NCBI RefSeq assembly: GCF_002356355.1
Contig: NZ_AP018052.1
Coordinates: 1,116,001 to 1,180,000 of the forward strand
Direction: 5' to 3'
Origin: Thiohalobacter thiocyanaticus
GTDB lineage: Bacteria > Pseudomonadota > Gammaproteobacteria > Thiohalobacterales > Thiohalobacteraceae
DNA: 64,000 nt
Positions 11,046 to 57,946 of this stretch are shown here, one piece after another (position 1 is the stretch's first letter; every line of letters starts with the position of its first letter). A model generated the notes under the pieces. It made no database searches. It saw only the letters and a list, made by a program, of their open reading frames with translations, and was not told the origin of the DNA. A program made the position numbers and the translations under genes.

Positions 11046-11399
11046 TCAGGATCCCGGCGGGCTCGAATCCTCCCCGCCGCCGAACTTGACCAGCCGCGTG
11101 ACCTGGATGTCGGAGATGAACACCACCCCCGAATGCTCGCTGTAGAAGGGCGCGAAGCCCTCCAGGATGGGCTTGACCAGGGACTCGGGCACGGCGGCGA
11201 TGATCATGATCAGCACGTCGTCCTCGTTGAACATCAAGTGGCCTTCGTGGAAGCCGTGATTGCCCTTGCCCGAGAGGTTGTTGATGATGGTGTAGCCCTT
11301 CACCCCGGCACGGTCGAGCAGGTCGGTGGCAAAGCCCTGATGCTCGCCGCCCAGGATGATCTCGAGCTTCTTGAGCGGGCTGAAGTTGAGGTTTCTCAT
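11046..11399 (-). CDS. PII-like signalling protein of the Dab carbon-uptake operon
   Basis: A 117-residue protein of the GlnB/PII-like fold. Recognisable segments are LKKLEIILGGEHQG at the N-terminus, GVKGYTIINNLSGKGNHG in place of the classical T-loop, and ISDIQVTRLVKFGGG at the C-terminus. The T-loop lacks the uridylylation tyrosine context of GlnB, so it belongs with PII-like proteins tied to inorganic carbon (compare SbtB and CPII) that bind adenine nucleotides. Its start overlaps the dabA stop, so it is co-translated with the pump. The likely job is to adjust Dab activity to energy or bicarbonate status, which is inferred from context. Confidence 0.85.
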   Translation of the reverse strand: MRNLNFSPLKKLEIILGGEHQGFATDLLDRAGVKGYTIINNLSGKGNHGFHEGHLMFNEDDVLIMIIAAVPESLVKPILEGFAPFYSEHSGVVFISDIQVTRLVKFGGGEDSSPPGS

Positions 11400-14300
11400 G
11401 TCGACTCCTCCGGGATGGGGGGGTGGGTCAGGCGGGTCTGCTCACGCCACTCGCCGTCGTCGTACAGGGTAACGGCCGCGGTTTCGGGATCGATCACCAG
11501 CAGCCGGATCCAGCCGTTGCGCACCAGATGCTTGACCGCGGTCACGTCGTCGACGGCACGCCGGGCGTGTTCGAACGGCGCCTCGATCAGGGTGATCAGC
11601 CGTACCGGTTGATGATAGGGCCGGCCCTGTTCGAGCACGGTCTGGGCCGGCAGGCCGGTGCGCAGATCGCTGAGGTTGCCGGTCATCACGCCGAAGCGGC
11701 CAGCCACGTTGTGGTAGACCTTGCTGCCGCTGCCGAAGCATTCATTGTCTACCGTGGAGAAGTAATGCTCCATGTTGATCCACTGACCCACCACCAGCGG
11801 TCCGGTGAGGATGTTCTCCAGCAGCCGGCGCTTCGGATCCAGGCGGTAATCGTAGGAGTGCAGGAAGGCGCGGCCTTCCAGTGCCAGTTCGCGGGTCAGG
11901 TCGCGGCGGCCGATGACGAAATAGGCATTGCCCGACAGACCCCACTCCGGCCGCACCTGCGACCAGTCCATGGCGTTGCGCTGGACGGCCCTCTGGGCGG
12001 CGGCCGGCTCCGGCACTGCGCGCCGTCGGGTTGCCCCCTGCAGTGCCGGCAGCCGCTCCCGGGCGCACAGGCGCGAAGCCGCGGTCAGGCCCTTGCGCAG
12101 CCGGTCGAGATAGACCACATGGGATGAAGGCAGACGGTCCAGGTCGTACAGTGCCAGCGTATCGGTGGTGGTGTTGTGCAGGGCCGGAATGAACCAGGCA
12201 TCGTCCGGGATCTCGATGCCGTGGGCGCGCAGGCGCTGACGTACCTCCGGCTTGTTGGCCATCTGGGCCAGCACGCGGGCGTTGACCAGGCCGTGGTTGC
12301 CGCCGCAGGCCCCGCAGTCGAGCGCGGATTCGTAGGGATTGTTTTCCGACGTGCTGCCATGGCCGGCCAGCAGGATGAAGCGGGAGAAGTCACGGGTCAG
12401 GCCGATCGAGCGCAGCGCCTGGCTGACGAAGCCGACCTGCTCATCGAGGGAGAAGCCGATGCGCGCCAGCCGTTCCAGCTGCAGCCGGGCGAAGGCGGGA
12501 TCGATGCGGTAGACCTCGCGCAGGCGCCGGATGAAGGCCTGCGCGGCGGCGCTGTCCAACCCCAGGGCGTTGGCCAGTTCGGGGGCGTCCGGCTGTCGGC
12601 CCAGGGCCGCCTCGCGCAATTCGCGCACCAGGGTGTCGGGGATACGTTCGGCGGTGAGTTGGAACTCCTGTTCCAGCGCCTTGACGATCACGGCACGCTG
12701 GACGGCGCGCACGATGGAATCGGCCTGGTCGCGGTCGAGCTTGTCGAGCAGCAGGTGGGTCGGCGGCTTGTGTTCGTGCAGCTGGCTGCGCCAGCGGTTG
12801 TAGTGCCGGGGCAGCAGGGTCTTGCCGATCATGTCGAAGCCGAACAGCAGGCCGATGGCCTCGACCGTGACGAAGGGGCTGAGCACGGATTCCTTGAGCT
12901 CGTGCAGCGCCTTCTCCATGGCCGTGACCGCATTCAGATCGCGCGGGCCCTCGACGCTCATCTCCAGCGCCAGGTTCTTTGGCGTGAGCAGCACCGGACA
13001 CAGATGGGTCTCGCTGCCCTTGCCCAGTTCCATGAAGCTGACCGGCACCCCGAAGAAGCCCGCGATACCGAAGGTCTGGTAGTCGCCGATCGATTCCAAC
13101 TGGCGCCGGATGCGCTCGGAGCGGGTGTCGATGCAGAACAGCGCCTGCACGAAGGGCCGTTTGTCGCGCGGCGGCGGCGGTGCCAGCTGTATCCCTGAGA
13201 GCAGTCTGTGCATGGCGTGCGCCTCCATGGCCCGCAGCCACAGCATACCCTCCCGGCGTTCGAACTCGCGCAGGTGCTGCACCAGGGCGTCGAGCTGGCC
13301 GGTGTCCAGCCGTTCCAATGCCTGCGTGTCGTCTGTCTGCTCGGCCAGAGAGCGCAGGGATTGCGCCTGCCGTTCGGCCTCGCGGGTGCGCTGGCAGCGC
13401 ACATACTCGCCGAACACGGCCTCGATCCGCCGTGCGCCGCCCAGCGCCAGGCTCTCCTCCACCTGCTGGGCCCGGTCGGGCAGTATCCGGCCGGTGTGCA
13501 GTTCATGTCGCAGCCAGGCCTCCGGCGTACGGGTCTCGATCAGTTCCCGGATGGCGGGGGCGGAGGTGACGCCGAACCGGCGCCCGCGCTCCTGCAGCAG
13601 GGCCAGCGCCAGGGTCAGGCGCACCGCCAGCAGATCGACCAGATCGCCGGGGTAACGCTGGCCCCAGTGATAATGGCGGGCGCTGGAGCGCCAGCGGATG
13701 AAGCCGGCCCAGCCGTGCAGGCGCGCCAGTTCGCGGGTGAAATAGGCGCTCCAGTGCTGTTCCGCGACCCCCAGGGTCCGCATCACGTAATCGATCACGC
13801 CCTCGGGGGTCTCGTCGACGGCGAGGATGCGTTTGATGTGCATGCCGCGCAGGAACAGCCGGACGTTGCGGCTGGCCACCTCGCGCCAGGCGGTGAAGAA
13901 GCCGCGGCTGCGCAGCGGCATGCCCCACACCGACTGGCCCTCGTCGAAGAAGTCCAGGCAGCTCTTGATCACCAGTTCGTCCAGTTCCGCGCCGATGCCG
14001 GTGCCGAAGAGGGCATCCACGGCCTCGTAGACGGGGGTCTCGCCCAGCAGCGTACTGCACAGCCGGTCGGCCAGCATGGCCGGATCGATGTCTGCCTCCG
14101 GGGCGGGGCGGGTACCGGCGAGCGCGGCCGCGGTCCCGGTCGGGTCGGCCAGCGGGCCGGCCGCCGTCACCGGCTGCTCGATCCGGGTCAGCAGGGCCAT
14201 GCACCAGGCCTGCAGATCGATTCCCGGGACCGGCTCCCGCCCGGCGGCGAAGGCCGTCACCGCCGCCTGCAGCCGCTCCCGATCGATCCGGTCCGCGGCC

Positions 14301-14512
14301 AGATAGGCCTGGTACTGGCGCCGCGGCAGCTGGCAGCGGCAGTGGAACAGGCGGGCGCCCTGCGCCACGGCCTCTTCGAAGGGCAGATGTTCCAGGCCGT
14401 GCAGCGGGTTGTGATGGATGAAGGCGCGCATCGGCCAGAAAAAGGGAATGGGCTCGCCGGCCACATAGGTCATGGCGCGGATGCGCAGGCGCTGTCCCAG
14501 CGACAGACTCAT
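11396..14512 (-). CDS. dabA: DabA, probable inorganic-carbon transporter catalytic subunit
   Basis: A 1038-residue protein of the DabA/UPF0753 (DUF2309) family, the cytoplasmic carbonic-anhydrase-like part of an energy-coupled CO2/bicarbonate-accumulating pump. The four metal-site residues described for Halothiobacillus DabA are present: C460 and D462 in FCIDTRSE, H718 in GHGSTSENN and C733 in LDCGACGG. The H-to-C spacing of 15 matches the described protein. The N-terminus (MTYVAGEPIPFFWPMRAFIH) is typical. The start is ATG 14512, which overlaps the stop of the upstream membrane gene (ATGA). The open frame continues upstream to 14986 only as an overlap artefact. It is longer than the roughly 830-residue Halothiobacillus protein. 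Confidence 0.95.
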   Translation of the reverse strand: MSLSLGQRLRIRAMTYVAGEPIPFFWPMRAFIHHNPLHGLEHLPFEEAVAQGARLFHCRCQLPRRQYQAYLAADRIDRERLQAAVTAFAAGREPVPGIDLQAWCMALLTRIEQPVTAAGPLADPTGTAAALAGTRPAPEADIDPAMLADRLCSTLLGETPVYEAVDALFGTGIGAELDELVIKSCLDFFDEGQSVWGMPLRSRGFFTAWREVASRNVRLFLRGMHIKRILAVDETPEGVIDYVMRTLGVAEQHWSAYFTRELARLHGWAGFIRWRSSARHYHWGQRYPGDLVDLLAVRLTLALALLQERGRRFGVTSAPAIRELIETRTPEAWLRHELHTGRILPDRAQQVEESLALGGARRIEAVFGEYVRCQRTREAERQAQSLRSLAEQTDDTQALERLDTGQLDALVQHLREFERREGMLWLRAMEAHAMHRLLSGIQLAPPPPRDKRPFVQALFCIDTRSERIRRQLESIGDYQTFGIAGFFGVPVSFMELGKGSETHLCPVLLTPKNLALEMSVEGPRDLNAVTAMEKALHELKESVLSPFVTVEAIGLLFGFDMIGKTLLPRHYNRWRSQLHEHKPPTHLLLDKLDRDQADSIVRAVQRAVIVKALEQEFQLTAERIPDTLVRELREAALGRQPDAPELANALGLDSAAAQAFIRRLREVYRIDPAFARLQLERLARIGFSLDEQVGFVSQALRSIGLTRDFSRFILLAGHGSTSENNPYESALDCGACGGNHGLVNARVLAQMANKPEVRQRLRAHGIEIPDDAWFIPALHNTTTDTLALYDLDRLPSSHVVYLDRLRKGLTAASRLCARERLPALQGATRRRAVPEPAAAQRAVQRNAMDWSQVRPEWGLSGNAYFVIGRRDLTRELALEGRAFLHSYDYRLDPKRRLLENILTGPLVVGQWINMEHYFSTVDNECFGSGSKVYHNVAGRFGVMTGNLSDLRTGLPAQTVLEQGRPYHQPVRLITLIEAPFEHARRAVDDVTAVKHLVRNGWIRLLVIDPETAAVTLYDDGEWREQTRLTHPPIPEEST

Positions 14513-15261
14513 GCCAGACCTCCCAGCAGGTACAGGCCGGCACCGGCCAGCAGGCCGAGGACGGCGGCGTAGGCCCAGGTGGCGGTTCGGCTGAGGTCCT
14601 CCGCCCCGTTCCCGTCCCCGGGGCCGACCACCAGTCCCTGCAGCAGGCGTGCGGCCGCCCAACTCCACAACAGCCAGACAGTGACCAGGGCCAGGGCGAT
14701 GCCCGGGGCGGCCGCGGCCGTGGCGAGGGTCAGTGTCAGCAGGGTGAAGAAGGGCGGGAACAGGGGCATGGCGATGACGGCCAGCACCACCACCACCACC
14801 ACCCCGCTCAGGCGCGGCAGACGCTGCGCCAGGCCGCCGTGCAGGCCCGCATAGGCGGCGCCGAAGCGCTGCTCCAGCCCGGCGCCGAGCAGGCCGAGCA
14901 GTACCAGGGGGACGCTCAGCCCGAGTCCGTGCAGTGCCGGAGGCACCTCGCCGGGCCGCGCCAGGACCAGCCACAGCAGCGCCCACAGCGAACTGGCGAG
15001 AAAGCCGGTCCAGAGTCCGAGTTCGCGCAGAGTCAGGGCCCGGAAGGCATACAGGGCCGAGGTCAGCAGCGCCCAGTAGAGCAGCCAGTCGGGCGGCGAC
15101 GGCGCTGTGGCCACCAGCGCCAGGCCGATCTGCGGCCAGACCAGCAGGATCAGGGTGCGCGCCGCCGGCCGGCGCAGACGCCGCAGCAGGAGGTTGAATG
15201 CCATGCTGAGCGGAAACAGCGGCAGGAACAGTCCGGCGAGCAGATAGATCGCGGCATCCAT
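14509..15261 (-). CDS. Multi-pass membrane protein between dabB and dabA
   Basis: A 250-residue, very hydrophobic protein with about eight predicted membrane segments, near residues 3-22, 36-54, 58-74, 79-100, 108-128, 150-172, 176-200 and 228-248. I do not recognise a specific family. The segment around LSGVVVVVVLAVIAMPLFPPFF recalls a conserved helix of NuoM/NuoN and Mrp-type antiporter subunits. It may therefore be an extra piece of the DabB proton channel. It starts 1 base after the dabB stop and overlaps the dabA start by 4 bases, so all three are made together. Alternatives are an assembly factor or an independent ion channel. Confidence 0.7.
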   Translation of the reverse strand: MDAAIYLLAGLFLPLFPLSMAFNLLLRRLRRPAARTLILLVWPQIGLALVATAPSPPDWLLYWALLTSALYAFRALTLRELGLWTGFLASSLWALLWLVLARPGEVPPALHGLGLSVPLVLLGLLGAGLEQRFGAAYAGLHGGLAQRLPRLSGVVVVVVLAVIAMPLFPPFFTLLTLTLATAAAAPGIALALVTVWLLWSWAAARLLQGLVVGPGDGNGAEDLSRTATWAYAAVLGLLAGAGLYLLGGLA

Positions 15262-42648: not shown

Positions 42649-42930
42649 TCAATGTGACAGCTGGTTGCCCCGGTGATCGCAGGCCAGCAGTATCCAGTCC
42701 CTCAGCAGCGTCTCGTAGGCGGAACGATCCACCGGCGTGTGCTGCAGATCGGGATGCGCCAGCAGCAGGCGCAGATGGTGGACCACGCCCCGGGCCAGGC
42801 CGGGGCTGGGCTGCAGGGCGTGGCGGGTCATCAGGTAGAGCAGGACGGCTTCCAGCAGGTCGCGCCGGGGCGGGCGATCCAACCCGGCTGCCGCAGCCTC
42901 GGGCAGGGTGAGCATGGCTTGCATGGGCAT
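42649..42930 (-). CDS. Small protein of unknown function, Fur-box promoter (paralogue of 46062-46349)
   Basis: A 93-residue, mostly helical, probably cytosolic protein. The core RDLLEAVLLYLMTRH, PSPGLARGVVHHLRLLLAH and TPVDRSAYETLLRDW is shared with the protein at 46062-46349, with about two thirds of 64 positions identical by hand alignment. Neither has a known domain that I can name. Ribosome site GGAGG precedes ATG 42930. The promoter at 42995-43022 carries a Fur-type palindrome, so it should be made when iron is low. It stands alone, converging on the sulfur island. Confidence 0.75.
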   Translation of the reverse strand: MPMQAMLTLPEAAAAGLDRPPRRDLLEAVLLYLMTRHALQPSPGLARGVVHHLRLLLAHPDLQHTPVDRSAYETLLRDWILLACDHRGNQLSH

Positions 42931-42990
42931 ATCCTCCGTATCGGGCGTTGCGGGGGAAGGCGCAGTTCACGGGCGGCCTCCCACCATGAT

Positions 42991-43022
42991 GCAAATGATA
43001 ATCGTTATTATCTAAATGTCAA
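42991..43022 (-). promoter_or_regulatory. Promoter with overlapping Fur box (iron-regulated), copy 1
   Basis: On the minus strand TTGACA (43022-43017), a 16-base spacer and TATCAT (43000-42995) form a strong promoter. The AT-rich palindrome GCAAATGATAATCGTTATT (42991-43009) matches 15 of 19 bases of the Fur consensus and covers the -10. The same layout occurs at 47782-47809 and 47902-47929. Confidence 0.85.
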
Positions 43023-46061: not shown

Positions 46062-46349
46062 CTAGTGCATGGATTGTCCCGCGGCGCCTGCCGCATGTAC
46101 GGGACAGTTGTGCTCGAAGGCAATCAACCCCCAGTCGTTGAGCAGGGATTCATAGGCGGATCGATCCACCGGCGAATCCGCCAGGTCGGGATGCGCCAGC
46201 AGCATCTGCAGATGATGCATGATGCCCCGGGCCAGGCCGGGGCAGGGTTTCTGGGTGTAGCGTGTCATCAGATACATCAGGGCCGCTTCGAGGACGTCGC
46301 GATGTGGGTGCTCGGCGGTGACGGCTGTGTTGGTCGAAGGCCTGTTCAT
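46062..46349 (-). CDS. Small protein of unknown function in hemP operon (paralogue of 42649-42930)
   Basis: A 95-residue helical protein with the conserved core RDVLEAALMYLMTRY, CPGLARGIMHHLQMLLAH and SPVDRSAYESLLNDW. It shares about two thirds of its core residues with the protein at 42649-42930. The start is ATG 46349 because GGAGG lies 8 bases before it; a GTG at 46358 is possible. It starts 15 bases after the stop of the HemS-like gene, so it is in the haem operon. This ties the unknown family to iron or haem. Confidence 0.75.
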   Translation of the reverse strand: MNRPSTNTAVTAEHPHRDVLEAALMYLMTRYTQKPCPGLARGIMHHLQMLLAHPDLADSPVDRSAYESLLNDWGLIAFEHNCPVHAAGAAGQSMH

Positions 46350-46364
46350 GCAATGCACCTCCTC

Positions 46365-47342
46365 TCAGTAATGTGACTGGCAGCCCGACGGGGCGGGCGG
46401 ATCGACAGGCAGAGCGGCGAGGAGACGCTGCCAGACATCGAGTTGGGACGGGTAGCGGCCCAGCGGGCCGCCCAGGGTGGCGAGGGTTTCGCCGTCGGCG
46501 CCATACAACTCCAGGGTGCTGCCCTGGCACGGCAGACGGGCCCCTGCGATCTGCGCCTGCTCCAGGACCAGGCAGTAGTCAGCCGCCTGCAGCATCAAGC
46601 GGCCATCTTCGCAGCGAACGGCATCGACCATGCCGCGCCAGGTGTGTACGGTGCCCGCATTGGCGACCGTGAAGCTGATACACAGATCGACATCGACCAG
46701 CGAGTGCAGCAGTTCCGACAACTGCGCGACCGGTATGCACCTGTGGCAGCCACCGGCGCGGCCCGCCGACAATGCCGGCTGATCACCAGCCGTTGAGGGT
46801 CCGCGCGGCAGCAGCAGTTCCGGACTCTGGTCGGTGCTGCGGTAAGCGGCGACGAACATCCGGTAGGCATAGGCGTCGCTGGTGCTGGTCAGTCGGATGC
46901 GGTGGTTGCAGCGGCCATGTGCATCGAAGAAATGCAGGCTGTGCTCCACGCCCCGCCGCACAGGTCGCGTGATTGCAAAGCCGTAGTGCCAGTTGGCGAA
47001 ATCGAGATCCAGTTCGTAGTCGCCGGCCAGCAGCAGGCCGCGGTCACCGCTCAGCCGCAGCAGGCGATACTCCAGTACCTGCTCCTGCTCGGCCTGACGG
47101 TTGCCGGTAATGGCGCACACCGGCCCGAGGCAGGCGAGGTCGGACAGCAGTTCACGACGGTTGCAGGCAAGCCGGGTTACATGGCGGCCGCAGGCCGCTG
47201 TCAGCAACTGTACTTCGCTCACGCCGAGCCGGGCTGCGATTGCCGCCAGGCTGCGGTCCGGATGGGTTGTGAATTGATGTGCCAGCGCCTCCCGCAGTGA
47301 AATCATCGGACGAATGCCATCGAGCATGACCTGTTGATTCAT
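46365..47342 (-). CDS. HemS/ChuS-like haem-handling protein (divergent)
   Basis: A 325-residue protein with the tandem-repeat layout of the HemS/ChuS/HmuS family. The N-terminal pattern is SLAAIAARLGVSEVQLLTA, followed by LACLGPVCAITGNRQA and a blade ending GYFF-like HYGFAITRPVRRGVEHSLHF. The second half repeats it weakly (SELLHSLVDVDLC, GRYPSQLDVWQRLLAALP). Family members bind or degrade haem in the cytoplasm. It is shorter than the usual roughly 345 residues and the central region, rich in Ala and Gly, is divergent. It lies downstream of hemP. I am sure of the family but not of enzymatic activity. Confidence 0.72.
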   Translation of the reverse strand: MNQQVMLDGIRPMISLREALAHQFTTHPDRSLAAIAARLGVSEVQLLTAACGRHVTRLACNRRELLSDLACLGPVCAITGNRQAEQEQVLEYRLLRLSGDRGLLLAGDYELDLDFANWHYGFAITRPVRRGVEHSLHFFDAHGRCNHRIRLTSTSDAYAYRMFVAAYRSTDQSPELLLPRGPSTAGDQPALSAGRAGGCHRCIPVAQLSELLHSLVDVDLCISFTVANAGTVHTWRGMVDAVRCEDGRLMLQAADYCLVLEQAQIAGARLPCQGSTLELYGADGETLATLGGPLGRYPSQLDVWQRLLAALPVDPPAPSGCQSHY

Positions 47343-47473: not shown

Positions 47474-47659
47474 TTACTTGGTCAGAATCAGTTTGCCGTT
47501 GCTGGTCTGTTGCAGGCGGTATTCCTCATCTCCATGTTCGATTACCAGATGCCGATTGCCCTTGAACAGGTCAACGCTGTTGATGCGTGCCGACGCTGCT
47601 TTGCCTGAAGTGGCCGGAGCAGGCGAGTGTTCGGAGTCGGGTTGCTTCTTGTCATTCAT
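47474..47659 (-). CDS. hemP: Hemin uptake protein HemP
   Basis: A 61-residue protein. The C-terminal family motif INSVDLFKGNRHLVIEHGDE and YRLQQTSNGKLILTK matches HemP, found at the head of haem-uptake operons and linked to activating haem-receptor expression. The start is ATG 47659 (MNDKKQ); a longer frame upstream is not supported. It is the first gene after the Fur-controlled promoter at 47782-47809. The 131 bases before the HemS-like gene contain no other gene. Confidence 0.9.
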   Translation of the reverse strand: MNDKKQPDSEHSPAPATSGKAASARINSVDLFKGNRHLVIEHGDEEYRLQQTSNGKLILTK

Positions 47660-47780
47660 TATTGAGCCTCGTGAAAGGATGCCGGAACAGATGTCTAATC
47701 CAGGGTTGCGGTGGCTCGGTGCAGCCGGGAGTGGCGCTGCGAACGCCTGACGCTGCAACGGTCGACCTCGCATGGATCGT

Positions 47781-47809
47781 AATGATAACGATTATCATTA
47801 AGATGTCAA
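47781..47809 (-). promoter_or_regulatory. Promoter with Fur box for the hemP operon, copy 2
   Basis: On the minus strand TTGACA (47809-47804), a 16-base spacer and TATCAT (47787-47782) form the promoter. The perfect palindrome AATGATAA-CGA-TTATCATT (47781-47799) covers the -10 and matches 15 of 19 Fur consensus bases in the best register. Binding of Fur with iron would block RNA polymerase. Confidence 0.9.
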
Positions 47810-47901: not shown

Positions 47902-47933
47902 TTGACATACGAACAATAACAATTATCATTAAC
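47902..47933 (+). promoter_or_regulatory. Promoter with Fur box for the rightward haem locus, copy 3
   Basis: TTGACA (47902-47907), 16 bases and TATCAT (47924-47929) give the same design as the two leftward promoters. The AT-rich operator AACAATAACAATTATCATTA overlaps spacer and -10. It faces right, about 350 bases before the first gene of the haem-uptake locus. Confidence 0.85.
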
Positions 47934-48284: not shown

Positions 48285-49004
48285 ATGAACAAACTGCAAT
48301 CCCTGCTGCTGGCGTCCGTCACGGTCGGTCTGTCCACGAATGCCGCTGCGGTGAGCTTCGCCGCGACCGCGGATACCTACATCTATGAGTTCCTCGGCAA
48401 TCAGCCCGGCGGCAATGTCCTGGTGGCGAATCACGAATCCAATCATGGCATGCGCGGCCTGATGGACTTCGATGGCCTCGATGCCTATCTGCCCAGTCTT
48501 ACCGCCGGTGGTTTCACCGCCACGCTGAACCTGTTTTCCGTCTGTGATACGAGCGGTTTCGTCAGTGCCTGCGCCGGTGAACCCAATGCCGCCGTTACCA
48601 CGGATGTCCTGGCGCAGAACGGTGCCTGGGGCGAGGACGATGCCGGTCTGGCCTGGAGTGACATCAACGAAGGTGGCAAATACGCCGACTTCACCATCAG
48701 CAATGCGGTTGATCAGTGGCTGAGCATCGATATCACCTCCCTGGTAGAGGAATGGCGCAGCAATGGCAGCACCGGCGACGGCATCATTCTGTCCCAGGAG
48801 GCCTATCCGGTGGTGCGCAACGATGCCGGTTCGATGGCCGTGGCGCAGTTCCTGTCCAGTGACTACGCCGATGCGAATTTCCATCCCTATGTCGATGTGC
48901 AGGTCTCGGCCGTGCCGGTGCCGGCCGCTGTATGGCTGTTCGGCTCCGGTCTGGTCGGTCTGGTCGGCGTCGCCCGCCGCCGCAGGCAGGCCGTGGCGGC
49001 ATAA
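48285..49004 (+). CDS. VPLPA-CTERM secreted protein with DNRLRE-like domain
   Basis: A 239-residue exported protein. A signal peptide (about residues 1-23, ending NAAAV) is followed by a beta-rich domain (about 25-205) and a C-terminal sorting tail VPVPAAVWLFGSGLVGLVG then RRRR. That tail is the VPLPA-type PEP-CTERM signal processed by an exosortase. The domain, with TYIYEFLGNQ, LMDFDGLD, SIDITSLVEEWRSNG and GIILSQEAYPVVRND, resembles DNRLRE-type surface domains and is clearly homologous to the C-terminal domain of the next protein. It is the first gene after the Fur-controlled promoter, which suggests a role in haem capture. The ribosome site is AAGGAG. Confidence 0.83.
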   Translation: MNKLQSLLLASVTVGLSTNAAAVSFAATADTYIYEFLGNQPGGNVLVANHESNHGMRGLMDFDGLDAYLPSLTAGGFTATLNLFSVCDTSGFVSACAGEPNAAVTTDVLAQNGAWGEDDAGLAWSDINEGGKYADFTISNAVDQWLSIDITSLVEEWRSNGSTGDGIILSQEAYPVVRNDAGSMAVAQFLSSDYADANFHPYVDVQVSAVPVPAAVWLFGSGLVGLVGVARRRRQAVAA

Positions 49005-49141: not shown

Positions 49142-51394
49142 ATGATGACGATGAAGATGCGATGGCTTGTTGCCCCGCAACTGGCACTGCTGCTTGTCGG
49201 TTGCATTGACAGCGGCCTTGAGGATACCGAGTCAGAGGCACTGTCCCCGGCCGAAGCTGCGGCCTTGCCTGACAATGCCTACTTCGATGCCGATGGCGCA
49301 GCGGTGCAGGTGCTGGACGCCACGAAAAATGACGTCTGGGTCTACTATGACCTGGATACCTACAGCGTCGTCACCCTCCAGGACCCTCAGGCCAATACCG
49401 AATGGGACCTGGCGTTCAACCGGTTCAGGGTCAAGCTCAACGGCGGTGTCAGCGGCACTGCCGGCGTCGCAGCGGCGGGCTTGCAGAATACCGCACTGTT
49501 CGATGTCATGGCCGCGCCCGCCACGGGTTTTGTCAGCGACCGCTCCCTGAACGAGCTATCCGATATCGAGTTGCTGAAACTCGGCGACAATCTGTTTTTC
49601 TCGGTCTGCGCGTCCGGACACGACGATGCGGACAAGGCCGATTACTGTCTGGCCAATGACCAAGTGGATCGCAGTCACCTCAATCCCGACGAGGCCGCCT
49701 ATGCCCTGCTCACCCAGGGCAGCGGTGTGGTGGTTGCGGCCGACGGCAGCGACGGCGATCCCATCCTGGGCTGGTATGATTACTATGGGTCGGAGGGGCA
49801 TGTACTGCGCCCCGCCGACGATACCTGGGTGGTGCGCAGCAGCGACGGCATCGAGTTCGCGCTGCAGATGCTGGGCTATTACGGCCGCAACGAGGGCGAT
49901 GCCGAGCCCGGGACGATCGCCTTCCGGTATGTTTCCCTGACCCCGGGCTTTGAAATCCCCCAGCCCGGCGCGCAGCAATTGCAGGCCCGGATCCAGGTCG
50001 ACAGCCTGACCGGCACGGCGCCGCTGACGGTGAATTTCACCGGCAGTGCCGAAGGGGTGGAGGGCACGGCCGACTGGCACTGGGATTTCGGCGACGGTGG
50101 CACGGCGCAGGTGCGCAACCCCGCCCATACCTATACCCAGGCGGGCACCTACACCGCCAGCCTCACTGTCACCGATACCCGCGGTGTTGCGGCCGCGGCC
50201 ACGGTCAGCAGGACCATCACCGTGGCTCAGCCCGGCGCGCAGGCGCCGCAGGCCGATGCCGGCGCCGATCAGACGCTGCAGCTGGCCAGCGGGGAGAATT
50301 CCACCACCGTCACCCTGGACGGCTCGGCCTCGGCCGATCCGGACGGCCAGATCGTCAGCTATGTCTGGATCGGCACCGGCGCGGATCCGGACGATGTGGC
50401 CCAGCCGCAGCTGGTGCTGTCGGCCGGCAGTTACAGTTTCACCCTCACCGTGACCGACGACAGCGGCAACAGCGCTACCGACACTGCCGCCGTGACGGTG
50501 AATGCCTCCGACAATGCCTCGCCGACCGCCGCGGCGCAGGCTGACCGCCTGCAGGGCGCCGCGCCGCTGGCCGTGACCTTCACCGGCGCGGCCAGCAGCG
50601 ATCCCGACGGTGCCATCACCGGCTACGACTGGGACTTCGGCGACGGCAGCGCCCATGCCTTCGTCGCCGTTCCACCGGCCCATACCTACACCCTGCCGGG
50701 CACTTACAATGCCTCGCTTACGGTGATGGACGATGGCGGGGCAAGCGGCAGCGACGGTCTGGCGGTGCTGGTGGGCTGGCCGACGACCCGCGACACCTAT
50801 GTCTACGAGTTCCTGGGCAATCAGGCCGATGCCACCGGCGACAGTGGTGGCTTCAACATCTGGAACCATTCCTCGGAACACGGCGGCAAGGCGCTGCTGG
50901 ACTTCGACGACAGTCTGCTCAACGCCGCGGCGCTGGCCGGCGGTCCCGGCACCTACACCGCGACCCTGTGGCTGTATTCCGTGTGCGAACTCGGCGGTCT
51001 GGTCGCTGCCTGCCCAGGCGATGCGGATGCAGACAATCCCTTCACCCCGGGCACGGCCACGGTCAAGACCGATGTGCTGCTGCAGACCCGCAACTGGGAT
51101 GAGGCCGGTGCCATCGACTGGGCCGACATCGACGAGACCGGCGCCCCGGTCGCCACCCTGACTCAGGCGACGACCGGGCAGTGGCACAGCGTGGATATCA
51201 CGGCGCATGTCGAGCACTGGGTCAACGCCGGCACTACCGGGGCAGGCCTGGCCCTGAGTCAGGAGGCCTATCCGGTGCTGCGCGCCGACAACGGTTCCAT
51301 CCCGGTCGCGGTGTTCTGCGACGCGGAGTCCAGCAGCGGCGCCTGCAGCGCGGACAACTTCCGGCCCTACATCATCCTGCAGGCCGCTCCGTGA
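49142..51394 (+). CDS. HmuY-like haem-binding lipoprotein with three PKD domains and a DNRLRE-like domain
   Basis: A 750-residue surface lipoprotein. The lipobox LALLLVGC is near residues 15-21. Residues about 40-265 resemble the HmuY haem-binding family (NDVWVYYDLDTYSVVTL, NTEWDLAFNRFRVKLNGG, VRSSDGIEFALQMLGYYG). Three PKD-type beta domains follow at about 280-360, 367-455 and 459-545; two carry the DFGDG signature and the middle one is atypical. Residues about 547-750 match the neighbouring CTERM protein (TYVYEFLGNQ, LLDFDDSL, SVDITAHVEHWVNAG, LALSQEAYPVLRADNGS). It probably takes haem from host or environmental haemoproteins for the receptor encoded next. The fusion is unusual. Confidence 0.82.
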   Translation: MMTMKMRWLVAPQLALLLVGCIDSGLEDTESEALSPAEAAALPDNAYFDADGAAVQVLDATKNDVWVYYDLDTYSVVTLQDPQANTEWDLAFNRFRVKLNGGVSGTAGVAAAGLQNTALFDVMAAPATGFVSDRSLNELSDIELLKLGDNLFFSVCASGHDDADKADYCLANDQVDRSHLNPDEAAYALLTQGSGVVVAADGSDGDPILGWYDYYGSEGHVLRPADDTWVVRSSDGIEFALQMLGYYGRNEGDAEPGTIAFRYVSLTPGFEIPQPGAQQLQARIQVDSLTGTAPLTVNFTGSAEGVEGTADWHWDFGDGGTAQVRNPAHTYTQAGTYTASLTVTDTRGVAAAATVSRTITVAQPGAQAPQADAGADQTLQLASGENSTTVTLDGSASADPDGQIVSYVWIGTGADPDDVAQPQLVLSAGSYSFTLTVTDDSGNSATDTAAVTVNASDNASPTAAAQADRLQGAAPLAVTFTGAASSDPDGAITGYDWDFGDGSAHAFVAVPPAHTYTLPGTYNASLTVMDDGGASGSDGLAVLVGWPTTRDTYVYEFLGNQADATGDSGGFNIWNHSSEHGGKALLDFDDSLLNAAALAGGPGTYTATLWLYSVCELGGLVAACPGDADADNPFTPGTATVKTDVLLQTRNWDEAGAIDWADIDETGAPVATLTQATTGQWHSVDITAHVEHWVNAGTTGAGLALSQEAYPVLRADNGSIPVAVFCDAESSSGACSADNFRPYIILQAAP

Positions 51395-51405: not shown

Positions 51406-53448
51406 ATGACTGGCGCAACGCGGTTCCGGCTGTTGGTCTGGCTGAGCGGGGTCTGCTTGTGTCTGCCGGGCGTGGGCGTGCGCGCCGAGGGCGATGCCTA
51501 TGCGCTGGACGAGATCAGCGTGACCGCCACCAAGACCGAGCGCTCGTTGTTCGAGACTCCGGAGGCGGTCAGCCGCGTCGGCCTGGAGGAGTTGGAGCGC
51601 AAGCAGGTGCAGAAACTCAGCGATGCCCTCAAGGACGTGCCCGGGGTGAGCTTCGGCGGTGGACCGCGCGCCGTGGCCGAAGAGCCCAACATTCGTGGTC
51701 TCAGCGGCAGCCGCATCCTGATCACGGTGGACGGCGCCCGGCAGAACTTCACCTCCGGCCACAAGGGTCGGGTGTTCATCGAACCCGAACTGCTCAAGTC
51801 CGTGGAGGTGATGCGAGGTCCCGGCTCGGCCCTGTACGGCAGCGGTGCGCTGGGCGGTGTGATCGCCATGACCACCAAGGATGCCTCGGACTTCCTCATG
51901 CCGGGCGATCGCTTCGGTGTGCGCTTGAAGACCGGCTTCCAGGACGCCAACAGCGACAAGCTGGGCACGGGCATTGCCTTCGGCCGGCTGGATGTCGGCG
52001 GCGGGCTGGAATACCTGGCCAGCGTGACACGCCGCAGCGCGGATGACATCCGCCTCGGTGGCGGCGAGGTGCTGGACGATTCCGCCGAGGCCAGCTGGGC
52101 CGGCCTGGCCAAGCTCAAGTGGACGCCGACCCCGTTTCAGCACATCAGTTTGTCCCGTCAGTACAGCTTCGATACCGGCGAGGTTCCGGCCCAGGCCGAT
52201 ACCCGCACCTCGGCCACCGCTGTGCTGACCGATCGCGAGACCGAGGTCAGCATCGATCGCCTGACCTGGCGTTACGAGCGCCCGGACGACCCCTGGCTGA
52301 ATTTCGACCTGTCCGCCTACAACACCGAGCAGACGCTGCGGGAAAAACGCATCGGAACCAATGGCCGGCTGGATGCCATCGATTTCGATACCCGCGGCCT
52401 GGAACTGCGCAACAGCTCGCGCCTGGAACACGGCGGCGACATCCGACACCGCTTCAGTTACGGCCTTGAATACTATCGCGACCGGATGAGCAGCCGTGAG
52501 GGAACTAGCAGCAATGATGCCTTCCCCGATGCCATGGCCGATTTCGTCGGCATCTATCTCCAGGACGAGATCGACCTGGATGGTACCCGCCTCGGTGACT
52601 GGGTGCTGATTCCCGGTCTGCGCTATGACCGTTACGAGAGCCGTTCCGATCGGGCCCGGGCGATCGGGGTGGCTGATGAGACCACGGCGAATCATGTCTC
52701 GCCCAGGCTCGGGCTGGTCTACCAGGCCACTGACTGGATGAATCTGACCCTGAACTATTCCCAGGCCTTCCGCGCGCCCAATTTCCAGGAGTTCTACATT
52801 TCCGGCAATCACTTCGGCGCCAACAACTTCCAGCCCAATCCGGAGTTGGACCCGGAGCGCCTCGCCCATGGCCTGGAGGCGGGGGTGCGCATCCGCCGCA
52901 ATGACCTGCTCGAGCCGCGCGATCGGCTGCGGCTGCGCGCCAGTCTGTATCGCAACGAGTACGAGGATTTCATCGACAGCATCGTCACCACCACGGTCAG
53001 CACCTTCGACAATATCAGCGAGGCGCGTATCCGCGGCACCGAACTGGAGGCGGACTATTACTCGCCCACGCTGGACCTGGATGCCAGCCTGGCGCTGACC
53101 GTCACCCATGGCGACAACCGGACCGACGGCGAGCCGCTGTCCGGGATCCCCGGCCATTCGCTTACGCTCAATCTGCGCAAGTATATCGCATCCTGGGGCG
53201 TGTCAGTGGGGTGGCGCGGCGCCTTCCATCAGCGCCAGGACCGCGTGCCCACGGGCGCGCCGGAGACGCCGGGCTACAGTGTGCATGACCTGTACCTGAC
53301 CTGGCTGCCATTGGTCCCGCAGGCCGTGGACGACATGCAACTCAATCTCGGTGTCGACAATGTGTTCGACAAGGAATACCGGCCGCACCTGAGTACGCTG
53401 CCGGCAGTGGGGCGCAATGTGAAAGTGAGCCTGAGTCTGCAGTTCTGA
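51406..53448 (+). CDS. TonB-dependent haem/haemoglobin receptor
   Basis: A 680-residue outer membrane receptor of the haemoglobin/transferrin/lactoferrin receptor family. After a signal peptide, the TonB box region is ALDEISVTATKTERSLFETP. The plug has VPGVSFGGGPRAVAEEPNIR and VEVMRGPGSALYGSGALGG. The haem-receptor signature FRAPNFQEFYISGNHFG and NPELDPE is present, with a histidine between FRAP and NPEL as in known haem receptors. The barrel ends in VSLSLQF. ATG 51406 is preferred over a GTG at 51391. It follows the HmuY-like gene by 11 bases. Confidence 0.93.
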   Translation: MTGATRFRLLVWLSGVCLCLPGVGVRAEGDAYALDEISVTATKTERSLFETPEAVSRVGLEELERKQVQKLSDALKDVPGVSFGGGPRAVAEEPNIRGLSGSRILITVDGARQNFTSGHKGRVFIEPELLKSVEVMRGPGSALYGSGALGGVIAMTTKDASDFLMPGDRFGVRLKTGFQDANSDKLGTGIAFGRLDVGGGLEYLASVTRRSADDIRLGGGEVLDDSAEASWAGLAKLKWTPTPFQHISLSRQYSFDTGEVPAQADTRTSATAVLTDRETEVSIDRLTWRYERPDDPWLNFDLSAYNTEQTLREKRIGTNGRLDAIDFDTRGLELRNSSRLEHGGDIRHRFSYGLEYYRDRMSSREGTSSNDAFPDAMADFVGIYLQDEIDLDGTRLGDWVLIPGLRYDRYESRSDRARAIGVADETTANHVSPRLGLVYQATDWMNLTLNYSQAFRAPNFQEFYISGNHFGANNFQPNPELDPERLAHGLEAGVRIRRNDLLEPRDRLRLRASLYRNEYEDFIDSIVTTTVSTFDNISEARIRGTELEADYYSPTLDLDASLALTVTHGDNRTDGEPLSGIPGHSLTLNLRKYIASWGVSVGWRGAFHQRQDRVPTGAPETPGYSVHDLYLTWLPLVPQAVDDMQLNLGVDNVFDKEYRPHLSTLPAVGRNVKVSLSLQF

Positions 53449-53531: not shown

Positions 53532-54458
53532 ATGAACACATACAGACGAACACTGATTCGCACGGCACTGCTGCTCGGCGTTGTGGCCAGCAGTTCCACC
53601 CAGGCCCTGACCATTCAGTTCGATTATCGCTACGACCAGGGTTTTTTCTCTGCGCAGGAACGTCGCGACCGACTCGAGCAGGCGGCCGGCTTCTTCGCCG
53701 GGGTCCGGGACAGCCTGGCGCCCATCGCGCCGAGCGTGGACGACCACTGGAGTGTGTGGTTTCACAACCCATCCAACCTGGGCGGCGGCCAGGTGCGGGA
53801 AGACAATCTGTTCGTCGCGGCCGATACACTGCGGGTGTTTGTCGGCGGCGCGGCCATGGGGGCGGGCGTACTGGGCTATGCCACCACCGGGACCCTGGAG
53901 GGCGTGTCCGGCTCGGCCGGGTTCGTCGACGCCGTCACCAGCCGCGGCCAGAGCAACACGTACGGTCCCGGCGCCACCGACTATGGCGTCTGGGGCGGCG
54001 CCATAGCCTTCAACAGCGATGCCAGCTGGCACTGGGGCGCGACCGAGGCGGGCCTGGATGCCAGCCGCAGTGACTTTCTGACCACGGCGGTGCACGAACT
54101 GGGTCACATCCTCGGCTACGGCCCGGCCGATTCCTGGGCCGCGCAGCAGCAGGGCGGGCTGTTCCTGGGCGCCGCCGCCATGGCCGCTTATGGCGGGCCG
54201 GTGCCCGTCGGCGGCGCCCACTGGGCCGAGGGCGTGACCGGACATTACGCCGGTCAGCCGCAGGAGACCCTGCTGGATCCATCCACTCCAGCCGGGATGC
54301 GCCAGTATCCGACCGATCTGGACTATGCCGGTCTGCAGGACATCGGCTGGGAGGTCAGGGCCGTGCCGCTGCCGCCGGCGCTGTGGCTGATGGGCTCGGG
54401 CATCATGCTCATGGCGCTGACCGCGGCACGGCGAAAAACCACTGTTGACAAACATTGA
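53532..54458 (+). CDS. VPLPA-CTERM zinc metalloprotease-like protein
   Basis: A 308-residue exported protein. A signal peptide (about residues 1-25, ending TQA) is followed by a catalytic-type domain with the zinc motif TAVHELGHILGYG. The third metal ligand of the metzincin HExxHxxGxxH pattern is absent at its usual place, so a different ligand is needed or the class differs. The C-terminus VPLPPALWLMGSGIMLMAL then RRK is a VPLPA-CTERM sorting signal. The position between the haem receptor and haem oxygenase-like genes suggests it may free haem from proteins at the cell surface; that is inference. The ribosome site is AAAGGAAG. Confidence 0.82.
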   Translation: MNTYRRTLIRTALLLGVVASSSTQALTIQFDYRYDQGFFSAQERRDRLEQAAGFFAGVRDSLAPIAPSVDDHWSVWFHNPSNLGGGQVREDNLFVAADTLRVFVGGAAMGAGVLGYATTGTLEGVSGSAGFVDAVTSRGQSNTYGPGATDYGVWGGAIAFNSDASWHWGATEAGLDASRSDFLTTAVHELGHILGYGPADSWAAQQQGGLFLGAAAMAAYGGPVPVGGAHWAEGVTGHYAGQPQETLLDPSTPAGMRQYPTDLDYAGLQDIGWEVRAVPLPPALWLMGSGIMLMALTAARRKTTVDKH

Positions 54459-54476: not shown

Positions 54477-55055
54477 ATGGCTGCATCCAAACCAGACCTT
54501 GAAGTCGTGCGCAGCGAGTACGAACAATTCTCGCAGCATTTCGAATCCCTGCTGATGGCCACCGTCAGCCCGGAGGGCGAGCCCAACGCCAGCTATGCGG
54601 CCTATGTCCGCCAGGGCAACGACTTCTTCATCTTCGTCAGTGAGCTGGCCTCGCATACCCGCAATCTGAGGGAGGACGGCAAAGTCAGCGTGCTGTTCAT
54701 CGAGAACGAATCCGACAGCAAGCATCTGTTCGCGCGCCGTCGCGTCACCTACCAGTGCGAGGCCCGGGAGGTGGATCGTCATGATGAAACCTTCCGCCCC
54801 GTGCTGGAACATTTCGCCGGCAAGTTCGGCACCCTGATCGACACCCTGCGGGAGTTGAAGGATTTCCATCTGTATCGGCTGCATCCGCTGCGGGCCACCT
54901 ATGTTGCGGGTTTTGCCAAGGCCTTTGTCATCGAGGGCGAGAACCTGGACAAGGTGCGCCATCTCAACGACGTCGGTCATCGCAGCGAACGTCGGGAAGT
55001 GGACGAACGTATGGACGAATGGCAGGACGAGGACTCCACCGCGCCCCGTGCCTGA
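54477..55055 (+). CDS. hutZ: HutZ/HugZ-family haem-degrading protein
   Basis: A 192-residue cytosolic protein of the FMN-binding split-barrel (pyridoxamine-phosphate-oxidase-like) family. MATVSPEGEPNASYAAYVR, VSELASHTRNL and RVTYQCEAREV fit HutZ/HugZ, which bind haem and help release its iron. A DUF2470 domain, which is fused to HugZ in some bacteria, is not in this chain but is encoded at 57969. FAKAFVIEGENLDKVRHLN near the C-terminus is conserved. The gene lies between the protease and hmuT. The ribosome site is GGAGGAAG. Confidence 0.88.
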   Translation: MAASKPDLEVVRSEYEQFSQHFESLLMATVSPEGEPNASYAAYVRQGNDFFIFVSELASHTRNLREDGKVSVLFIENESDSKHLFARRRVTYQCEAREVDRHDETFRPVLEHFAGKFGTLIDTLRELKDFHLYRLHPLRATYVAGFAKAFVIEGENLDKVRHLNDVGHRSERREVDERMDEWQDEDSTAPRA

Positions 55056-55090
55056 AGGCAGCGGTGCGGATGGCGGCAGAGGAAGGCGAT

Positions 55091-55981
55091 ATGCAGATGA
55101 TGACACTCAAACAGGCACTGGCGCTGACGCTGCTGGCGCTGTGCATGCGGGCGGGTGCGCTCACGGCGGCTGAACCGTCAGCGCAGCGCATCGTCAGCGT
55201 CGGCGGCTCGATCACCGAGATCGTCTATGCCCTGGGCGCCGGCGAGCGGCTGGTCGGGGTGGACACCACCAGCCTGTGGCCGGAGGCCGCGCAGGCGCTG
55301 CCGCAGGTGGGCTACCAGCGCAATCTTTCCGCCGAGGGCGTGTTGTCGCTGGCACCGACCCTGGTACTGGCCACGCATGAGGCGGGTCCGGCCGATGTGA
55401 TCGAGCAGCTGCGTCAGGCCGGGGTGACGGTCGTGCGCCTGCCCGACAGGCCCGAGCCCGGGGTGATCGCGAACAAGGTGCGCGGCGTTGCCTCGGCCCT
55501 GGGACTCGAGGCCGCAGGCGAACGGCTGGCCCGACGCATCGTCGCGCACCAGCAGCGGGTGACACAGCGGCTGGCCGGGATCGAGGCCCGGCCGCGGGTG
55601 CTGTTCCTGCTCGACATCGGCCGGGGCTCGCCGCTGGCCGCAGGCCGTGACACCGCGGCCGCTACCATGATCCGCCTGGCCGGGGCGGACAACGCGCTGG
55701 ATGGCTTCGCCAGCTACAAACCCATCAGCGCCGAGGCCATAGTCGCCGCCGCGCCCGAGATCCTGTTGATGTCCGATGCCACCCTGCAGCAATTGGGCGG
55801 TGTCGAGGGGGTGCTGGAGATGCCCGGCGTGGCGCTGACCCCGGCGGGCCGGCAGCGGCGCATTGTCACCATGAACGGGCTTTATCTGCTCGGGTTCGGG
55901 CCGCGCCAGCCGCAGGCCCTGCAAGACCTGGCGACCCTGCTGCATCCGGAACTGGACCTGGCGGGGACCGCGCATGAGTGA
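55091..55981 (+). CDS. hmuT: Haem ABC transporter substrate-binding protein
   Basis: A 296-residue periplasmic haem-binding protein. The signal peptide is about residues 1-26. RIVSVGGSITEIVYALGAG and LVGVDTTSLWPEAAQALPQV match the HmuT/HutB/PhuT family, as do YQRNLSAEGVLSLAPTLVLA and GFGPRQPQALQDLA. A conserved tyrosine in VGYQRNLSAE is the usual haem ligand. It hands haem to HmuUV. The start is ATG 55091 with AGAGGAAGG before it. It overlaps hmuU by 8 bases. Confidence 0.94.
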   Translation: MQMMTLKQALALTLLALCMRAGALTAAEPSAQRIVSVGGSITEIVYALGAGERLVGVDTTSLWPEAAQALPQVGYQRNLSAEGVLSLAPTLVLATHEAGPADVIEQLRQAGVTVVRLPDRPEPGVIANKVRGVASALGLEAAGERLARRIVAHQQRVTQRLAGIEARPRVLFLLDIGRGSPLAAGRDTAAATMIRLAGADNALDGFASYKPISAEAIVAAAPEILLMSDATLQQLGGVEGVLEMPGVALTPAGRQRRIVTMNGLYLLGFGPRQPQALQDLATLLHPELDLAGTAHE

Positions 55982-57101
55982 GGCGCGGGTGCTGCGGCGC
56001 GGTGTACCGGCGGCGACCCGCCCGCCGCAGCCCCGGGAGGCAGCGGACCGGCGTCCCGGCCGGCACCTGCTCTGGCCGCTGCTGGGGCTGACGCTGCTGC
56101 TTGGCCTGGTGACGCTGCTGGCGCTGGGCCAGGGGGCGGTGGCGATCGCCCCGCTGCAGGTGCTGGCCATTCTGGGCGACGGCCTGGGGCTGAGCCTGCC
56201 CTGGAGTTACGAGGCCAACCAGCAGGCGGTGTTGATGGGCATCCGGGCGCCGCGGATGGTGCTGGGCATGCTGGTGGGCGCCGCGCTGGCGGTCTCGGGC
56301 GCGGCGATGCAGGGTCTGTTCCGCAACCCGCTGGCCGACCCGGCCCTGATCGGCGTCTCCAGCGGGGCGGTGCTGGGCGCGGTCCTGGTCATCGTTCTGG
56401 GTGATGTCCTGCTGCAGGGCGTGCTGGAGGATTCGGTCATGGTGGCGCTGCCGCTGGCGGCCTTCGCCGGCGGCCTGGGCGCGACCCTGCTGGTCTATCG
56501 CCTGGCCAGCGGCAATTCGGGCACCGACGTCGCCACCCTGCTGCTGGCCGGCATCGCCATCAATGCCGTGGCCGGCGCGGCGACCGGCCTGTTGACCTAC
56601 CTGGCCGACGATGCCCAGCTGCGCACCCTGACCTTCTGGTCCATGGGCAGCCTCGGCGGGGCGACCTGGGACCAGGTGGCGCTGGTGGCCGTGGCCTGCC
56701 TGATCGCGATCCTGGCCATTCCGGCCTTCGCCCCGGCACTCAATGCGGTGCTGCTGGGCGAGGCCGAGGCGGGCCATATCGGCTTTCCATTGGAGCGGAT
56801 CAAGACAGTGCTGATCCTGCTGGTGGCGCTGGCGGTGGGCGGCGCGGTGGCCTTCGCCGGGCTGATCGGTTTCGTCGGCCTGGTGGTGCCGCATCTGCTG
56901 CGGCTGTGGTTCGGTCCGGATCATCGCCTGCTGCTGCCGGCCTGCGCCCTGCTCGGTGCGGCCCTGCTGCTGCTGGCCGACCTGCTGGCGCGCACCCTGG
57001 TCGCGCCGGCCGAGTTGCCCATCGGCATCATCACCGCGCTGCTGGGCGGCCCCTTCTTCCTGTGGCTGTTGCTGCGTTATCGCAACCGGAGCGGATTATG
57101 A
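55974..57101 (+). CDS. hmuU: Haem ABC transporter permease (FecCD family)
   Basis: A 375-residue inner membrane permease with about ten helices, of the BtuC/FecCD type. Typical stretches are IRAPRMVLGMLVGAALAVSG, GLFRNPLADPALIGVSSGAV and FAGLIGFVGLVVPHLLRLWF. The longer N-terminus (about 35 residues, Arg/Pro-rich) is cytosolic. It overlaps hmuT by 8 bases and hmuV by 4 bases, so the three subunits are made together. Confidence 0.96.
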   Translation: MSEARVLRRGVPAATRPPQPREAADRRPGRHLLWPLLGLTLLLGLVTLLALGQGAVAIAPLQVLAILGDGLGLSLPWSYEANQQAVLMGIRAPRMVLGMLVGAALAVSGAAMQGLFRNPLADPALIGVSSGAVLGAVLVIVLGDVLLQGVLEDSVMVALPLAAFAGGLGATLLVYRLASGNSGTDVATLLLAGIAINAVAGAATGLLTYLADDAQLRTLTFWSMGSLGGATWDQVALVAVACLIAILAIPAFAPALNAVLLGEAEAGHIGFPLERIKTVLILLVALAVGGAVAFAGLIGFVGLVVPHLLRLWFGPDHRLLLPACALLGAALLLLADLLARTLVAPAELPIGIITALLGGPFFLWLLLRYRNRSGL

Positions 57102-57946
57102 ATCTTGAGGCCAGCGACATTTCGGTATACGCCGGCGCGCGCGCCCTGCTGCACGGCGTCAGTGTCCGGCTCGCCCCCGGCGAGGTGCTGGCGGTGATCG
57201 GACCCAACGGCGCCGGCAAGAGTACCCTGTTGAAATGTCTGGCGGGAGAGACCACGCCGGCCGCGGGGCGGATCGGCATCAATGGCCGGGCGCTGGCCGA
57301 CTGGCCGCACCGGAGTCTGGCGCGGATGCGGGCGGTACTGCCGCAGCACTCCAGCCTCAACTTTCCCTTCCGGGTGCGCGAGGTGGTGGCGATGGGCCGC
57401 AGCCCGCATGCCGGCGCCCCGGCCGGGCACAATTCCGACATCGTGAACGCGGCGCTGACCGCCGCCGATGTGCAGCATCTGGCCGGGCGCGACTATACCA
57501 CCCTGTCCGGCGGTGAGCGCCAGCGGGTGCAGCTGGCGCGGGTGCTGACCCAGATCTGGGAGCCGGCAACGGAGGGCCCGCGCTATCTGCTGATGGACGA
57601 GCCGACCTCGGCGCTGGATCTGGTGCATCAGCATCATGTGCTCGGGGTGGCGCGCCGCTTTGCCCGTGAGCAGGGCATCGGGGTGCTGGCCATTCTGCAC
57701 GATCTCAATCTGGTGGCCGGTTATGCCGACCGGGTGGCGGTACTGCAGCAGGGCCGGCTCCGGCGCCAGGGGCCAGTGGGCGAGGTCATGCAGCCGGCGT
57801 TCCTTAGCGAGGTGTTCGGCATCCCGCTGCTGCGTCTGCCGCATCCCACCGTGCCGGAACAGCCGGTGCTGATCGCCCGGCCGCAGACGGACAGGGCCGA
57901 TGCGCCGACCACGCCGGCGGCGTGGCCTTCGGCGATCAATTCATAG
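57098..57946 (+). CDS. hmuV: Haem ABC transporter ATP-binding protein
   Basis: A 282-residue ATPase. It has Walker A IGPNGAGKST, signature LSGGERQRVQLARVL, Walker B YLLMDEPTSALD and the switch histidine in LAILHDLNLVAGYADRV. RSPHAGAP and WEPATEGPRYLLM match HmuV. It powers haem import with HmuTU. The true start is ATG 57098; the frame extends upstream through hmuU only by overlap. A short C-terminal tail after residue 255 is variable. Confidence 0.96.
   Translation: MNLEASDISVYAGARALLHGVSVRLAPGEVLAVIGPNGAGKSTLLKCLAGETTPAAGRIGINGRALADWPHRSLARMRAVLPQHSSLNFPFRVREVVAMGRSPHAGAPAGHNSDIVNAALTAADVQHLAGRDYTTLSGGERQRVQLARVLTQIWEPATEGPRYLLMDEPTSALDLVHQHHVLGVARRFAREQGIGVLAILHDLNLVAGYADRVAVLQQGRLRRQGPVGEVMQPAFLSEVFGIPLLRLPHPTVPEQPVLIARPQTDRADAPTTPAAWPSAINS

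Follow-up and report, generated by a model that had tools for sequence, protein, structure and literature searches.

A predicted HmuY-PKD lipoprotein with a CBM96/DNRLRE-like C-terminal domain in a haem-uptake locus of Thiohalobacter thiocyanaticus

A member of a known haemophore family with a rare domain architecture and conserved synteny is confirmed in Thiohalobacter thiocyanaticus; its HmuY domain is fused to three PKD domains and, at the C-terminus, to a domain here called D, and the gene lies within a haem-uptake operon. The window analysed is the whole stretch of 64,000 nucleotides (contig NZ_AP018052.1, positions 1,116,001 to 1,180,000). The function of the fusion is read from sequence and, on balance, the protein is probably a haemophore-like lipoprotein of a Fur-controlled operon, with HmuY held at the receptor and D tied to the matrix. 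HmuY biology is known almost wholly from host-associated Bacteroidota.

The fusion gene (49142–51394, +) is a single intact ORF of 750 codons with an ATG start. The original prediction of a HmuY-like domain, three PKD domains and a DNRLRE-like C-terminus in one putative lipoprotein is borne out by Pfam and NCBIfam profiles and by inspection of the lipobox. Residues 16–21 of the translation read LLLVGC by eye, giving a predicted signal peptide and lipobox (LVGC, Cys21; 49142–49204, +), and the +2 residue is Ile, so outer-membrane sorting is expected of this predicted outer-membrane lipoprotein. The signal is followed by the HmuY domain at residues 44–280 (49271–49981, +), three PKD domains at approximately residues 281–361, 373–453, and 458–537 (49982–50752, +), and D at residues 548–750 (50783–51391, +). 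The PKD region is matched by the Pfam profiles PKD_4, PKD and K319L-like_PKD, with PKD_4 reaching 159.1 bits in three stretches against a cut-off of 27, which places it within the PKD group. About 20 residues separate the predicted acylated Cys21 from the HmuY domain. As the predicted lipid anchor sits directly before HmuY, this domain would be membrane-proximal and the PKD domains would project D outward. The protein had been described as a long-reach haem-capture arm, but the PKD domains carry D, and not HmuY, away from the cell, hence the reach belongs to D.

The HmuY assignment is consistent across sequence and structure comparisons. HmuY (PF14064) matches residues 64–263 with 69.7 bits against a cut-off of 27 (E 4e-19), and a phmmer search of the PDB matched HmuY 3h8t at 2.4e-8. 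The prediction that the N-terminal domain folds like HmuY held, as AlphaFold2 returned the HmuY right-hand all-beta fold with pLDDT 93.4 and pTM 0.89 from 53 aligned relatives. The top twelve Foldseek matches of this model are all HmuY-family structures. In the VIA comparison the model superimposes on P. gingivalis holo-HmuY 3h8t with a Z of 19.0 and an rmsd of 2.1 Å over 152 residues; entries 1–8 of the ranking are all HmuY-family, followed by DUF4466 at Z 7.6 and unrelated structures from 3.2.

Haem contacts are less directly transferable from the P. gingivalis protein, in which the iron is held by His134 and His166 while Arg79 and Tyr173 contact a propionate (PMC2671838). The counterpart of Arg79, the propionate contact, is Arg94 (49421–49423, +), which is Arg in 49 of the 53 relatives. 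In the phmmer alignment, His134 is paired with Ala185 and His166 with Tyr215, and the loop lengths differ. Two other histidines are candidate haem ligands from the alignment. His220 (49799–49801, +), on the fingertip hairpin, aligns with the haem-contact residue Pro171 of HmuY; it is invariant in the three fusions and is His in 45/53 aligned HmuY-family sequences, mostly from Myxococcota and Gemmatimonadota. His179 (49676–49678, +) is likewise invariant in the fusions and found only there, on a stretch that most HmuY domains outside the fusions lack. His220 is thus a likely haem ligand and His179 a possible second, and the domain would be expected to bind haem. Ligand pairs are known to differ within the HmuY family (PMC12106395). 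A further pair invariant in the three fusions, Cys156 and Cys169 (49607–49648, +), may form a disulfide.

On its gene content, the locus is a complete haem-uptake operon. The plus-strand genes run from a gene encoding D with a VPLPA-CTERM tail (48285) through the fusion, HmuR, a metalloprotease with a PEP-CTERM-like tail and HutZ to HmuTUV. As originally predicted, the fusion lies upstream of a haem receptor, the next gene (51406–53448, +) encoding a HmuR-type TonB-dependent receptor (TIGR01785, 522.5 bits against 316.85) with His119 and His469 conserved at the usual places. The metalloprotease (53532–54458, +) carries HExxHxxG, here HELGH, and was assigned from profiles and synteny; OB6 encodes a syntenic homologue of 49% identity (L033 7897–8805), while UBA5859 has none at that place. 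A HutZ/HugZ-like haem utilisation protein (54477–55055, +), scoring under equivalog cut-offs, is followed by a HmuT-like periplasmic binding protein (55079–55981, +) and a HmuU-like FecCD permease (55974–57101, +), both from Pfam/NCBIfam, and the HmuV haem ABC ATPase (57086–57946, +; 328 bits against a cut-off of 261). Divergent from this operon are hmuP/hemP (47474–47662, −; Pfam hemP, 63 bits) and a gene for a HemS/ChuX-like haem handling protein (46365–47342, −; Pfam).

Promoters of the form TTGACA-16-TATCAT, each with 11/12 positions matched, precede both arms at 47902–47929 (+) and 47809–47782 (−). Fur sites at 47915–47933 and 47778–47802 overlap them, such that sigma-70 promoter and Fur-like boxes together span 47902–47933 before the plus-strand operon and 47778–47809 before hmuP-hemS. 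The 19-base Fur consensus, allowing up to 3 mismatches, matched once in the window and never in 100 shuffles. In UBA5859 and OB6, too, a TTGACA followed by a Fur-like box stands before the operon. These observations support Fur-type control of the haem operon. The fusion had been placed behind a Fur promoter and the Fur sites are real, but they lie ~1.2 kb upstream of it, before the first gene of the operon (48285–49004). Between that gene and the fusion gene no terminator-like site was found, and folding gave no support for a structured RNA in the same interval (fold z −0.99).

Elsewhere in the window, small proteins of ~95 residues are encoded at 42649–42930 (−) and 46062–46358 (−), with another in L033 (12580–12888, −). 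They have in common a pattern resembling YLMTRxxxxPxPGLARGxxHHLxxLLxHPDL, and the gene at 42649–42930 lies behind an overlapping Fur-box/TTGACA promoter (42985–43020). The 42649–42930 and L033 copies gave no Pfam match and the former no NCBIfam match; these proteins form an unnamed family that is probably iron-regulated. The window also encodes a DabA inorganic carbon transporter subunit (11399–14986, −), which suggests that the host is autotrophic.

The fusion was found in two other genomes when 84,980 species were scanned, Thiotrichaceae UBA5859 and Gammaproteobacteria OB6. The scan returned 67 related loci, and a PKD motif picked out the fusion in these two only; it used short, non-exhaustive patterns, and the rarity of the fusion holds for the searched sample. 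Genes for the D protein, HmuY-PKD-D and HmuR are syntenic in the window, UBA5859 and OB6, and the HmuR-type receptor adjoins the fusion in 3/3 genomes. The UBA5859 and OB6 fusions share 53% and 42% identity with the window protein, respectively, and the HmuY domains of all three form one clade with full support. Searches of ten further genomes from the order, two of them belonging to the genus itself, gave nothing close to the receptor gene, hence the locus is patchy and was likely gained by transfer or lost in relatives. Open papers mentioning HmuY together with a PKD domain came down to one proteomics paper, in which the two belong to separate proteins.

HmuY had been described as best known from Bacteroidetes, but it is not confined to them: profile and pattern scans place many members in Gammaproteobacteria, Myxococcota, and Gemmatimonadota, and HmuY/HmuR pairs in myxobacteria, spirochaetes, and Chlorobi were reported in 2009 (PMC2671838). 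In the class sample of 369 genomes, 14 encode PF14064. The remaining Gammaproteobacteria members inspected are mostly tandem-HmuY lipoproteins adjoining a TonB receptor, with two HmuY domains encoded directly downstream of the receptor gene in L021–L031; that of L028 has an extra C-terminal extension that appears cupredoxin-like by eye. Proteins with three HmuY domains adjoin a TonB receptor in Sandaracinaceae and an unclassified bacterium (L034 8703–10328 and L046 9854–11434). In L050–L091, many from Gemmatimonadota, HmuY follows an N-terminal membrane-anchor-like segment and is accompanied by a conserved YYCxxxxxGC-like motif, mostly with no adjoining receptor match at the threshold used. 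No HmuY relatives were found in viral contigs.

A feature overlooked in the original prediction is that the C-terminus of the fusion and the protein encoded upstream are paralogous D domains. The partner (48285–49004, +; 239 aa), assigned by NCBIfam and synteny, passes DNRLRE with 36.3 bits against 34 and VPLPA-CTERM with 26.8 against 25.35. D of the fusion scores 24.2 bits for CBM96 (Pfam cut-off 26) and 25.4 for DNRLRE (NCBIfam cut-off 34), and is therefore only DNRLRE/CBM96-like. Stand-alone copies reach one or other cut-off in the window and UBA5859, the latter passing CBM96. All three genomes encode D with a sorting-like tail immediately upstream of the fusion; the VPLPA-CTERM model matches these tails in the window and OB6, while that of UBA5859 matched no sorting-signal model, though the sequence contains VPIPAAVWLFGSALFGLLGVARR. 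Across the D domains 42 columns are invariant, including NHxSxHG, and the SQE motif is also invariant. Within the 369-genome class sample, only the three fusion genomes gave strong matches spanning D; a few weak partial matches occur elsewhere, and most others are to the sorting tail alone. Among the related loci examined, strong D-spanning matches are confined to six proteins of the three fusion loci.

The structural model of D is of low confidence (pLDDT 52). Its best matches include the chondroitin-sulfate CBM 8wab (Z 9.1) and the alginate CBM96 7vbo (Z 7.6), with TGF-beta prodomains at 7–8 scoring about equally with the CBMs; when PDB sequences were searched with the D profile, nothing but weak TGF-beta prodomain matches came up. 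A resemblance to carbohydrate-binding modules is thus suggestive only. CBM96 is known to bind alginate (PMC9971899).

The host genome encodes XrtD, the VPLPA-CTERM-specific exosortase (580.2 bits against a cut-off of 400), in a polysaccharide cluster beside WcaI- and WecA-like genes, and also has XrtA with its glycosyltransferase cluster. With XrtD and a VPLPA-CTERM tail, the partner would be expected either on the cell surface or within the matrix. PEP-CTERM proteins are associated with exopolysaccharide and mostly encoded in single-gene operons (PMC1569441). The fusion lipoprotein would also be surface-exposed, which is left unexplained as no Slam-type lipoprotein exporter matched in its own genome, in a search run with no positive control.

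In the model that these data favour on balance, the acylated N-terminus would keep HmuY on the outer membrane, next to HmuR, where the domain would capture haem and hand it over to the receptor for HmuTUV to move inward. The three PKD domains would form a stalk pushing D outward, and D may dock on extracellular polysaccharide or on the VPLPA-CTERM partner, tying the haem-capture complex to the matrix. In P. gingivalis, proteases are reported to work jointly with HmuY (PMC10100897), and the downstream metalloprotease may act with HmuY in a similar manner. More tentative is a two-part haem capture within the exopolysaccharide layer by the exosortase-sorted partner and the fusion, with a D–D contact or a common polysaccharide ligand coupling the matrix to HmuR. 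Several results count against the favoured model: His134 and His166 are unmatched in the alignment, the Slam search found no exporter, the D model is weak, TGF-beta prodomains score like CBMs and the UBA5859 partner's tail matched no sorting-signal model. The same structural matches would allow D to be an attachment domain for a protein in which the remainder of the chain is a stalk and HmuY its distal catching head, as could happen if the lipid anchor were released and the protein held at the surface via D. The metalloprotease encoded two genes downstream might free the N-terminus for this purpose. However, this arrangement is unlikely, as the acylated form has HmuY proximal and there is no evidence of a cleavage site.

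The distal position of D could also serve the capture of a haemoprotein or other haem carrier at a distance, with HmuY stripping the haem next to HmuR. Restriction of D to these haem loci in the class sample fits such a role, and the invariant NHxSxHG could bind metal or haem. We nonetheless give it little weight, since D resembles carbohydrate-binding modules, occurs on a stand-alone exosortase substrate too and is without a known haemoprotein-binding relative. It is quite improbable that the HmuY domain has lost haem-iron coordination and serves a surface adhesin as a structural adaptor, with the haem operon incidental. The P. gingivalis ligands have no His at their aligned positions, and coordinating residues are missing from some HmuY paralogues of Bacteroidota (PMC12106395), but His179 and His220 are invariant in the fusions, Arg94 is conserved and the haem receptor is next door in every fusion genome.

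That environmental Gammaproteobacteria have a HmuY-PKD-D locus, syntenic and under Fur control, indicates that the HmuY domain has been reused in a larger surface device, and suggests that haem uptake is tied to the slime layer of the cell. We know of nothing earlier that connects haem uptake with exosortase sorting; matrix-coupled capture, if true, would be the first such link. The two D genes provide a defined pair for asking whether nutrient receptors anchor to the exopolysaccharide matrix.

Compared with P. gingivalis HmuY-HmuR, the fusion is alike in its HmuY fold, in its predicted lipid anchor and in its gene directly preceding that of a haem receptor. The P. gingivalis protein consists of one compact domain, whereas the fusion continues for ~470 more residues in its PKD and D domains and, in the alignment, has residues other than His at the two ligand positions. 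The tandem-HmuY lipoproteins belong to the same class and also adjoin a TonB receptor, but have two HmuY domains, lack PKD and D, form a separate clade and have the receptor upstream, unlike the fusion loci where it is downstream. The CBM96/DNRLRE group, represented by the alginate-binding TM6-N4 of Dp0100, is linked to D by the scores of the partners and by 7vbo being among the best folds. D of the fusion differs in sitting on a haem lipoprotein and not an enzyme, in having NHxSxHG and in scoring under both cut-offs. Finally, the VPLPA-CTERM tail of the partner and XrtD in the genome recall the PEP-CTERM/exosortase surface proteins associated with exopolysaccharide, from which this locus is set apart as the whole domain of the sorted partner is common to a haem-uptake lipoprotein within one operon.
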